Source of the DNA: a virus
Reading direction: 5' to 3' (one strand)
Virus record (IMG/VR): IMGVR_UViG_3300020156_000043
Span: 1-45,494 of that record
DNA length: 45,494 nucleotides
In this document: piece after piece, positions 1,194-4,245 of the stretch
Position numbering within the stretch: the first letter of the stretch is position 1
Layout: each line of letters starts with the position of its first letter
Translations under genes and position numbers: made by a program
Notes under the pieces: generated by a model
Database searches by the model: none
What the model was told of the DNA's origin: nothing
Seen by the model: only the letters and a program-made list of their open reading frames with translations

Positions 1194-2944
1194 CACTCAT
1201 CGACAAAACTAAGTTTGAGCGAGCATTAGAAATCATTGCTCAAGCTGAAGAAATTGCTATCGACTGCGAAACGTACTGGACTAAGTCATGGGAAAATAAA
1301 AGGATAATTGGAGTAAGCATATATGGAGAAGCTCTGGGGAAGCGCTTTAACGGATACTTTCCGTTCAGACACGAATGGGAAGAAGTCGAAAACTTACCTT
1401 ATGATTATTTGGAGAGACTCACAGAGAAACTCAATGTCGTCCCTAGCCATACTTTCCACAACGCGAAATTTGACCGCCAGCGATTTGTTTTGGAGGGCTT
1501 GCGGCTAACTAGTACGTTCTTCTGTACTATGGTAGCAAGCCACATGCTAGACGAAAACTCTAGTCATGAGCTTGAAGACTTAGCTGAACATTATGGCATT
1601 GATCCTGATGCTAACAAGCGTAAGCAGCACTTGCATGACTTACGGGAACACATTGTATGGCATAGAATTCCGTCTGAAGTCATGGTACCTTACGCTTGTG
1701 GTGACACTCGTAATACTTGGCATCTGAAGCGTAAACTTATTCCTAGATTAGAGAAGCAAGAACTCATGCGTCTGTGGCCTACAGAGGAATCATATTCTGA
1801 TTGCCTTATGGAAATGGAAACTGTAGGCATTCCGATCGACTGTAATAAAGCTGAGCGCTTAGCTGATCAGTGTACTAAGCGTATGGTGGCAATAAAAAAG
1901 GAGCTTGGCTTTGATCCAGCCAAACCCCTACCTTTAGCACTTAAGTTGTTCAAGGACTTGAAGCTCCCTATCTATGAGATAGGTAAGCCGAGTAAGCAAT
2001 TCCCAAAGGGCCGTCCGAAGATGGACGAAGGGACCTTTATTAAACTAGCTAAGGATGTTAAAACTCCTGAAGCTAAGGCAATAATGGATCTAGTTCTGGA
2101 GTTTCGTGGGCTCCAGAAAGCTAAGTCTACCTGGTACGTTGGCTGGCCTGAATTAGTAGATTCAAAAGACAGACTTCATCCAAGCTTTCAACAGCATGGG
2201 ACAGCTACTACTAGGCTTTCTTGTAACACACCTAATGTGCAGCAGATCCCTCGTGAAGAGGAATTAGAGGGAGAGATCCCTTTAGATAAGCAAGTCAAGA
2301 AGCTACTGACTGCACCTAAGGGTTATGAGCTTTACGAGTTGGACTATAATCAAGTAGAATATCGGCTTGCTGGGGTTCTCTCAGGAGACCCTGTTATCCT
2401 CGATGCTTATAGAGCGGGCAAGGATATGCACTCGGCAACCGCTGAGAGGTTAGGGCTAACTCGTCAGCAAGCTAAGACTACAAACTTCCTTTTTATCTAC
2501 GAGGGAGGTCCTGGCAGGTGGGCTGAAGTATTTGGGCAGCCACTAGATAAAGCTAAAGAAGTCTATGCAGAGTATCATAGAGTGTATCATGTTATGTTCA
2601 AGTTCGCTGCTAGAGTAAATGCGACAGCGGGTCAACGAGGCTACATAAAACTTTGGGATGGACGGCGCCGTCACTTCCGCTTCGCTTTCGAGACTAAGAA
2701 AGCTTGGAATAGTTATGTTCAGGGTGGCGCAGCGATCCTAATAAAACACGGAATGACTAGGATTCATAAGGACCAGACACTCTTATCTAAAATGGTAAGC
2801 CAAGTTCACGATTCTATCTGGTGTTTAGTACCTGAATACGCAACTCACACTGAGCTAAAGAAGATAGCCGAACACTTGGAGTGGCCTTCTCGTGATCCTC
2901 GGTTTAAGATTGATTTCCCTGTAGAGGTTAAACGATTAGTATGA
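1190..2944 (+). CDS. DNA polymerase I family replicative polymerase
   Basis: A 584-residue A-family DNA polymerase that copies the phage genome. The N-terminal 3'-5' proofreading domain shows D25-x-E27, HNAKFD with D95, and Y168-x3-D172 (DEDDy type). The polymerase domain shows motif A ELDYNQVEYR (D385), motif B RQQAKTTNFLFIYEGG (425-440) and motif C QVHDS (H540, D541); the usual HDE is HDS here. There is no 5'-3' exonuclease domain, as usual for phage enzymes. Starts at ATG 1190, overlapping the helicase stop (ATGA-type). The last 34 residues (551-584) have a diverged second copy downstream of the HNH gene (3372-3488), suggesting the present 3' end was swapped in by a homing event. Confidence 0.96.
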   Translation: MTLIDKTKFERALEIIAQAEEIAIDCETYWTKSWENKRIIGVSIYGEALGKRFNGYFPFRHEWEEVENLPYDYLERLTEKLNVVPSHTFHNAKFDRQRFVLEGLRLTSTFFCTMVASHMLDENSSHELEDLAEHYGIDPDANKRKQHLHDLREHIVWHRIPSEVMVPYACGDTRNTWHLKRKLIPRLEKQELMRLWPTEESYSDCLMEMETVGIPIDCNKAERLADQCTKRMVAIKKELGFDPAKPLPLALKLFKDLKLPIYEIGKPSKQFPKGRPKMDEGTFIKLAKDVKTPEAKAIMDLVLEFRGLQKAKSTWYVGWPELVDSKDRLHPSFQQHGTATTRLSCNTPNVQQIPREEELEGEIPLDKQVKKLLTAPKGYELYELDYNQVEYRLAGVLSGDPVILDAYRAGKDMHSATAERLGLTRQQAKTTNFLFIYEGGPGRWAEVFGQPLDKAKEVYAEYHRVYHVMFKFAARVNATAGQRGYIKLWDGRRRHFRFAFETKKAWNSYVQGGAAILIKHGMTRIHKDQTLLSKMVSQVHDSIWCLVPEYATHTELKKIAEHLEWPSRDPRFKIDFPVEVKRLV

Positions 2945-3375
2945 TATGCAACGTTGAAGGGTGTAATAAAAAGGCTAGAGCTAAAGGGCTGTGCCGATCG
3001 CATTATATGAAGCAGTACAGGTACGGTGATCCCCTGGCACCTAAACCTAAACACAGGTATAAAGGCACCTATAATGAAATAGGGCATAATTATAAGGACG
3101 GCAGAACAGCTCATCCTCTATACTATAGATGGAAAGCAATGATTAGAAGATGTAACGATCCTAATGATGCATCTTATTGGTCTTATGGAGGAAGAGGAAT
3201 TACTGTTTGTGAAGAATGGGAAAATGATTTCTGGCAGTTCGCAACAGATATGGGCCCGTGTCCTGGTGGATTTGTACTCGACAGAATAGACAACTCCGAT
3301 GGATACAAACCATCCAACTGTAGATGGACCGATAGAATAACATCTAGTAATAACCAAAGAGGTAGAAACGAATGA
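2941..3375 (+). CDS. HNH-type homing endonuclease-like protein
   Basis: A 144-residue protein. It has an N-terminal zinc-knuckle-like part (C3, C8, C18 and H21 in the CNVEGC...GLCRSHY pattern), then the block common to free-standing phage HNH enzymes: HPLYYRW, YGGRGITVC, LDRIDNSDGY and KPSNCRW near the C-terminus. Such enzymes cut one DNA allele and spread their own gene. It starts in ATGA overlap with the polymerase stop and is followed, again with overlap, by a spare copy of the polymerase C-terminus. That placement fits an inserted mobile gene. Catalysis is not proven from sequence alone. Confidence 0.85.
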   Translation: MICNVEGCNKKARAKGLCRSHYMKQYRYGDPLAPKPKHRYKGTYNEIGHNYKDGRTAHPLYYRWKAMIRRCNDPNDASYWSYGGRGITVCEEWENDFWQFATDMGPCPGGFVLDRIDNSDGYKPSNCRWTDRITSSNNQRGRNE

Positions 3376-3488
3376 ATGATCACGCCTCTCATACTGAGCG
3401 TAAGAAGCTAACTGAGCATCTTGAATGGCCTAGTTATGATGAGCGATTTAAGATTCCTTTCACTGTAGATTGGACTAGGCTAGCATGA
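3372..3488 (+). pseudogene. Displaced copy of DNA polymerase C-terminus
   Basis: A 38-residue reading frame starting at an ATG that overlaps the HNH stop. From the fifth residue it aligns without gaps to polymerase residues 551-584, with 22 of 34 identical (shared EHLEWPS, RFKI and RL). The simplest reading is that this is the original 3' end of the polymerase gene, cut off when the HNH cassette arrived with its own version. It overlaps the next start (ATG 3485), so it may still be translated by coupling, as a short peptide of unknown use. Confidence 0.85.
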
Positions 3489-3790
3489 ATAATGAAGAAC
3501 TGTATTTTCATCTAGACAATATCGCTCATCACTTATACCAACATCTTGAAGAGACTGGTCGTTTCAATAGACATAGTAATCCTGTCTTACCAGCAATATT
3601 AGAAGAAATCTACAAACCTCTCGTAAAGCGTATGCAGGATGAGCATAATGCAGAAATGAAATTAGCTCTTGAAAAAATTAGGCAGCTTGAGGTAGAAGTA
3701 GTAGCGGCTAGAGATGAATCCGCCTACAGGGTGGCTGGAGAAGTGAACGGTAAGATTTTATACGCCAGAAAAGATGGGATTGATGGCTAA
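3485..3790 (+). CDS. Unknown protein, helical C-terminal half
   Basis: 101 residues, not recognised. The N-terminal half is rich in His and aromatic residues (HLDNIAHHLYQHLEE). The middle (about 45-75) is a charged, probably coiled-coil helix. ATG 3485 overlaps the stop of the polymerase remnant, and the gene overlaps the next one, so it sits in the tightly packed operon behind the polymerase. A role beside replication is possible only by context. Confidence 0.75.
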   Translation: MNNEELYFHLDNIAHHLYQHLEETGRFNRHSNPVLPAILEEIYKPLVKRMQDEHNAEMKLALEKIRQLEVEVVAARDESAYRVAGEVNGKILYARKDGIDG

Positions 3791-4052
3791 ATATCGCAAG
3801 AAACCTGTAGTAGTTGAAGCTCGACAGCTAACAGATGATATGTCTGTGTTTGAAGAAATAGCGGAGTGGGCTGGTGCTGATTATGTGTGGGATGAGGATG
3901 GTCCTCCCTATATGATTATCAATACCCATGAGGGAGATATGAGAGCTATGATAGGAGACTGGATCATCTGTGGCATCAAGGGCGAGTTCTATCCCTGTAG
4001 GCCTGACATCTTTGAAGCCACTTATGAACGAGATTACGTAGATGAAGATTAG
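3783..4052 (+). CDS. Small PGDYG/phage accessory family protein
   Basis: About 89 residues. It begins KYRKKPVVVEA and carries MIGDWIICGIKGEFYPCRPDIFEATY, the signature of a very common small phage protein family of unknown function (often named for its (P)GDW/Y motif). A start at ATG 3774 (three residues longer) is also possible. ATG 3783 puts the family-typical MAKYRKKP at the N-terminus. Overlaps both neighbours by a few bases. Confidence 0.85.
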   Translation: MAKYRKKPVVVEARQLTDDMSVFEEIAEWAGADYVWDEDGPPYMIINTHEGDMRAMIGDWIICGIKGEFYPCRPDIFEATYERDYVDED

Positions 4053-4245
4053 AGTTTGGTTTCCAACTAGAGGTGCTGCTGGACCTACCCACAACCACTA
4101 CGATTATAAAGTAGAAGGCTGGGAGATAACTAGTGGTGGGGTGCTTCTTATATACGAACAGCCAGGAAAGATACAGTATTGGTTTAAAGACTGGTCATGG
4201 GCTGAGAGGATAAATGAACTTCAAGAAGAAGATCAGCAAGCTTAG
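4042..4245 (+). CDS. Unknown small protein
   Basis: 67 residues, not recognised. The sequence has alternating short beta-like stretches (KIRVWFP, WEITSGGVLLIYE, IQYWF) and an acidic end. It overlaps the stop of the preceding gene and the start of the next, showing translational coupling. Confidence 0.7.
   Translation: MKIRVWFPTRGAAGPTHNHYDYKVEGWEITSGGVLLIYEQPGKIQYWFKDWSWAERINELQEEDQQA

Follow-up and report, generated by a model that had tools for sequence, protein, structure and literature searches.

Gene order at the left end of the window

The window, meaning the whole 45,494-base viral record that we analyzed, carries genes for phage head, portal, terminase, tail fiber, helicase, and exonuclease. 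At its left end, all on the plus strand, a gene for a DnaB/RecA-like helicase or primase-helicase (positions 3 to 1193, 396 amino acids, with PHROG DNA helicase and primase/helicase matches) is followed by the frame of a family A DNA polymerase (1190 to 2944, 584 amino acids). The body of the polymerase gene, codons 1 to ~548 (1190 to 2832), matches Pfam DNA_pol_A (2.7e-55) and a 3′-5′ exonuclease model (3.1e-16) and is part of a full-length alignment with the polymerase of a relative, L002. The rest of the gene, residues ~549 to 584 and the stop codon (2833 to 2944), resembles L002 less than a second copy of the same end located downstream does, and we infer that it is a replacement 3′ end that arrived with the gene that follows. 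That gene (2941 to 3375, 144 amino acids) encodes an HNH-type endonuclease by its PHROG profiles. Next comes a frame of 38 amino acids with its own ATG (3372 to 3488), whose homology to the polymerase tail and to the L002 polymerase end starts at ~3378; it is probably the leftover native polymerase 3′ end. A gene of 101 amino acids (3485 to 3790) has an orthologue in L002 (41 identical of 97 aligned residues), and the gene after it (3774 to 4052, 92 amino acids, phrog_419) is also conserved there, with 41 identities.

Start and stop codons overlap as ATGA at each of the three joins around the HNH gene and the small frame (2941 to 2944, 3372 to 3375, and 3485 to 3488), and ATGA or GTGA overlaps link the genes of the left end up to 3488. 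The polymerase and HNH genes also share a pattern at their ends, AGAGGT..AAACGA..ATGA (2923 to 2944 and 3354 to 3375), perhaps a ribosome site or junction homology. On the plus strand between the two copies, a search for terminators and promoters returned nothing above chance except a promoter-like match within the HNH gene.

A second contig, L001, is 99.7% identical to the window over 8.5 kb and has the same arrangement, so this is not an artifact of assembly. L001 is not an independent case. Half of the 24 differences between the two over these 8.5 kb (12 of 24) sit in 46 bases of the polymerase gene, 1999 to 2044, and this cluster looks like a small gene-conversion patch.

Two versions of the polymerase 3′ end

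A preliminary description of this DNA had reported that polymerase residues 551 to 584 align with the small frame without gaps, 22 of 34 being identical, and that the HNH gene lies exactly between the two copies with start/stop overlaps on both sides. Both observations held, the matching part of the small frame being its residues 5 to 38. The local alignment score is 119; when the small frame was shuffled 5,000 times and aligned to the entire polymerase, the highest score was 53, and 20,000 upstream/downstream pairs mismatched among other HNH loci all scored below 119. The observed similarity is real and not due to chance. The local alignment also takes in residues 549 and 550 (EY/DH), so the true boundary lies at codon 549 to 551. 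Homology between the copies runs from about codon 549 through the stop codon, and the two copies are preceded by unrelated sequences, the polymerase body in one case and the last part of the HNH gene in the other. This defines an inserted unit of ~544 nucleotides: 36 codons of polymerase end, a stop codon, and the HNH gene. Motif C (HDS, residues 540 to 542) remains in the resident gene, and the unit supplies all that lies beyond residue ~548. Judging from solved relatives, whose aligned region extends past motif C, a family A polymerase probably requires this last part.

We then considered which of the two ends is native. Our scans contained only two close polymerase relatives, L001 and L002; all others were at most 35% identical, too distant to align well in the tail region. 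L002 is the sole close relative without the HNH gene, and its polymerase, ~61 to 62% identical, aligns over the full length, in agreement with the earlier suggestion that the insertion kept the enzyme whole. The same description had predicted that relatives lacking the HNH gene should end like the copy at 3372 to 3488. Indeed, the L002 polymerase ends as the downstream copy does (...SYDSRFKIKFPVDWTRLA): L002 reads ...EYAIHTEQARITRHLEWASYDSRFKIKFPVDWTRLA, the downstream copy ...ASHTERKKLTEHLEWPSYDERFKIPFTVDWTRLA, and the present polymerase ...ATHTELKKIAEHLEWPSRDPRFKIDFPVEVKRLV. We saw no HNH-free relative with a polymerase ending in ...SRDPRFKIDFPVEVKRLV; the only close one is L002, with the end just given. 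The leftover shares ..SYDxRFKIxFxVDWTRLA* with the L002 polymerase end. Identity to that end is 24/34 for the downstream copy and 20/34 for the present tail, and of the 12 residues that distinguish the copies, L002 agrees with the downstream copy at 6, with the present end at 2, and with neither at 4. This 6:2 count is modest, since it rests on one close HNH-free polymerase relative, 61% identical. Taken with the L002 end, it makes 3378 to 3488 most likely the displaced native end and suggests that the tail before the HNH gene arrived together with that gene. Both genes 3′ of the downstream copy have L002 orthologues, although L002 has extra sequence in between; together with the L002-like end, this indicates that the downstream copy occupies the original position and most likely has the native sequence. 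The leftover is still an open frame and matches L002 at 24 of 34 residues, but 12 of its 34 residues differ from the tail, so the divergence of the tail probably predates its arrival.

Recurrence of the layout

To survey other loci, we used a protein scan, two further HNH queries, a YGGRGI-type DNA pattern, and a few genome contigs. Near-copies were collapsed, leaving 200 distinct related HNH frames, around which we looked for a gene whose stop lies close to the HNH start codon and whose end is matched immediately past the HNH stop codon. Five of the 200 loci scored at least 60; the next best reached 37, and 20,000 mismatched pairs gave at most 54. In addition to the polymerase of the window (score 119), the host genes are a DNA methylase-like gene in L050-L052, whose relatives are annotated as DNA methyltransferase (117), a homologue of phiKZ gp42 in L221 (79), a XerC/D-like tyrosine recombinase in L276 (67), and a gene fragment at a contig end in L020 (60), the least secure of the set. 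The units measure 506 to 1,090 nucleotides. In all five, the elements lie on the same strand, the right boundary is the 3′ end of the HNH gene, and unrelated sequence precedes both copies. The five nucleases are 34 to 52% identical to one another. On a tree of 187 homologues, in which many branches are weak, the cases require five changes, no fewer than shuffled labels do; by this measure, the five enzymes do not group as a clade.

Several candidates were rejected. On the minus strand of L300, paralogous zinc-ribbon-like ends (VRCxECxY...DDFCSYG) flank an HNH gene, and these are separate genes with no leftover; the matches in L021, L046, and L216 were low-complexity and out of frame. Eight GenBank phages with related HNH genes had no duplicated ends. 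Two further arrangements came up in the survey. In L331 (Shewanella phage SFCi1), an HNH-like region lies inside an annotated DNA polymerase frame and looks intein-like. On the minus strand of L261 (reverse-complement 3603 to 3627 and 4077 to 4101), a direct repeat of ~25 bases (AATAATGAGCGAGAGCG.ATAGGAG) bounds the HNH gene and may reflect the same process acting at a leader.

Polarity could be read in one more locus. For the methylase, compared with six GenBank relatives that are not mutually independent, 8 diagnostic residues favor the downstream copy and 0 the upstream one, which places the leftover nearer to the family than the tail. Residue comparisons of this kind have shown polarity for two of the five genes, polymerase and methylase. 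The remaining three lack a close HNH-free relative. The protein copies of L221 are identical at 15 of 16 residues, so protein comparison gives no polarity there; for the L276 recombinase and the L020 host gene, we found no close HNH-free relatives, and a direct protein search of GenBank phages with the L020 host fragment returned no match. In L276 (7960 to 8042), the unit starts right at the codon of the tyrosine in DVKVSQMY, which in this family should be the catalytic tyrosine of the recombinase. The unit would then supply an active-site residue. The L276 tail and HNH gene have a lower G+C content than the leftover (GC3, 0.60 in the tail versus 0.92 in the leftover). In L221 (1001 to 1090), a strong terminator-like hairpin (AGTAGGTCTTCGGACCTACTTTTT) follows the replacement tail and precedes the HNH gene, and the leftover's own hairpin lies downstream.

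The layout in four unrelated genes and the L002 end support part of the reading in the preliminary description. Its statement that the polymerase 3′ end had been recoded was too strong. The two polymerase copies use the same codon at 12 of 22 identical residues (0.55), compared with 147 of 358 (0.41) between the polymerase and that of L002; since codon sharing is higher between the copies, ordinary divergence explains the polymerase tail. Elsewhere, the same-codon share is 3/15 in L221, where 12 of the 15 identical residues are synonymously changed, and 2/14 in L276. These two tails are more like deliberate recoding, yet saturated divergence would give the same picture. Only L221 looks strikingly recoded at the codon level.

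The HNH protein

The product of the HNH gene matches two HNH endonuclease profiles, phrog_3377 (1.1e-34) and phrog_374 (4.4e-34). It had no match to a Pfam nuclease model, a sequence search against solved structures found none, and Foldseek gave no significant match. The predicted model contains, at high pLDDT, a strand at residues 111 to 115, a strand at 127 to 131, and a helix at 132 to 143, a putative beta-beta-alpha core. The best aligned solved chain was that of the HNH restriction enzyme PacI, with a Z score of 6.2 over 77 residues, within the range of chance matches; I-HmuI scored 2.1, also in the chance range. The site where the first histidine is expected reads LDRIDN, as located by eye, and R115 is near-invariant among 34 homologues. 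In this putative nuclease, the usual first H-N-H histidine thus appears to be replaced by arginine.

Proposed mechanism and alternatives

We propose, with a probability of roughly three in four, that the 3′ part of the polymerase gene was invaded by a mobile HNH gene that brought its own version of the last ~36 codons, taken from a related polymerase, and left the native end behind. No donor lineage for the tail was found; this, the arginine at the place of the usual first histidine, and the small number of close HNH-free relatives weigh against the proposal. The mobile unit, tail plus stop followed by the HNH gene, would have inserted so that the tail was fused in frame to the resident body, giving a hybrid but complete enzyme. 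The ~36 codons with which the gene originally ended would now come immediately after the HNH stop codon and would still contain the start of the next gene. The nuclease may act in mixed infections, nicking or cutting an unoccupied allele near codon 549, just past motif C, and repair from the occupied copy would install the unit. Neither the new tail nor the interrupted site would then be cut again. With such a design, homing genes could occupy phage genes that are essential and overlap tightly, and would need no intron or intein.

The serious rival is a local duplication, in which the polymerase 3′ end was tandemly duplicated in this lineage, the copies drifted, and the HNH gene landed between them. 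This would fit the DNA identities, as tail and leftover agree at 68 of 102 positions, more than either does with L002 (56 and 62 of 102). However, through drift of that extent the leftover could hardly have stayed open and L002-like unless it was under selection. Furthermore, five genes have the HNH 3′ end exactly at the boundary, so the same two-step accident would have had to happen five times, and the tails of L052 and L221 differ from their leftovers mostly at synonymous sites. Weakened by this recurrence and by the open, L002-like leftover, duplication followed by insertion seems to us unlikely. Another explanation makes the HNH segment an intron or a bypassed insert, with splicing of the RNA or hopping of the ribosome giving a true polymerase that ends in the leftover. 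In the literature, group I introns in phage polymerase genes often carry HNH endonucleases, but a search of 2400 to 4100 found no group I or II intron, Rfam being empty both at the gathering cutoff and up to E = 1. An intron would not need the polymerase upstream of the HNH gene to be complete and intact, as it is here; with the enzyme already whole, splicing is unnecessary, and we consider this explanation very improbable. We also discarded an insertion of the genes-in-pieces type, as in Aeh1 nrdA, where both gene parts are needed: compared with L002, the polymerase frame upstream of the HNH gene lacks nothing, and profile matches extend to its end.

The 38-residue frame may instead be a functional small protein or a translated leader, retained as the carrier of the next gene's translation start. 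Its open frame begins with an AUG that overlaps the HNH stop, AGAGGT lies 9 nucleotides upstream, and its stop overlaps the next gene's start as ATGA. Given the AUG and AGAGGT, the leftover in the window may be translated, as the preliminary description supposed in calling it a scar that can still be translated. This is not a general feature, however, because in L221 the leftover lacks a start codon and leads into a hairpin. The frame belongs to no PHROG or Pfam family, and a search of 50,697 phage records gave no match. We think a small protein quite unlikely as an alternative, and it can be compatible with the replacement of the polymerase end, as a reason for retention. In three of the five cases, namely the window, L052, and L020, the stop codon of the leftover and the start codon of the following gene overlap, and hairpin-like sequence lies 3′ of the leftover in L221 and L276. 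Leftovers may thus persist because they hold either the start region of the next gene or a native terminator.

Relation to known homing systems

Mobile open reading frames that form gene hybrids are known from fungal mitochondria, in atp6 of Allomyces macrogynus and in atp6, atp9, cox2, and nad3 of Glomus (PMC3630166). There, as in the phage locus, an endonuclease ORF lies downstream of its host gene, on the same strand, between two versions of the 3′ end; the host gene has a foreign C terminus, and the native C terminus follows the ORF (PMC3630166). The native mitochondrial copy is closer to insert-free relatives (PMC3630166), as is the phage copy, at 24/34 versus 20/34 with few relatives to compare. 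The mitochondrial cases involve LAGLIDADG or GIY-YIG enzymes, and their mobility and transcripts have been partly tested (PMC3630166), whereas ours involve an HNH enzyme in phages and are known from sequence only.

Among phages, free-standing HNH/mob homing endonucleases have been described in T4 and others, and they resemble the present case in that an HNH gene sits beside an essential replication gene (PMC2988022; PMC10448857). In the parts of these sources available to us, such genes are inherited by repair of the cut allele with co-conversion of the flanks, which is only proposed here; they lie between genes with no duplicated 3′ end, and no replacement of a gene tail is described (PMC2988022; PMC10448857). 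In the collaborative homing of F-CphI with the psbA intron, self-cleavage is avoided by an altered site in the host gene, as we propose here; there a group I intron blocks the site (PMC6083498), whereas here the substituted gene end would do so. The phage reviews and surveys that we consulted cover free-standing HNH genes close to essential ones, as well as co-conversion, introns, and collaborative homing (PMC2988022, PMC10448857, PMC6083498). In open-access full text, we found no phage report of a carried replacement gene end; an earlier report may exist elsewhere.

In engineered home-and-rescue gene drives, a homing nuclease carries a changed 3′ end of its target gene, so that the gene works in carriers and is not cut. 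Those drives are designed, RNA guided, and used in animals; the phage units, natural and with a putative nuclease, may be their natural counterpart. Homing genes must occupy conserved essential genes without breaking them. The usual answers are introns, inteins, and intergenic insertion, and a carried replacement end would be a fourth. That it is found with several phage genes, in unrelated host genes, and with scattered nucleases suggests a general solution, repeatedly invented. We find it rather probable that these loci represent a recurrent, undescribed phage class of HNH homing units that carry a divergent rescue 3′ end. As natural home-and-rescue drives, they would have independently invaded polymerase, methylase, recombinase, and other genes, letting selfish genes settle among overlapping genes. 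If so, the ends of phage genes beside HNH genes may be of foreign origin, with consequences for gene trees and annotation, and short "orphan" frames that follow such genes may be remnants of native ends. Most likely, this is a phage variant of the strategy known from mitochondria, in another class of genome and with another family of nuclease.
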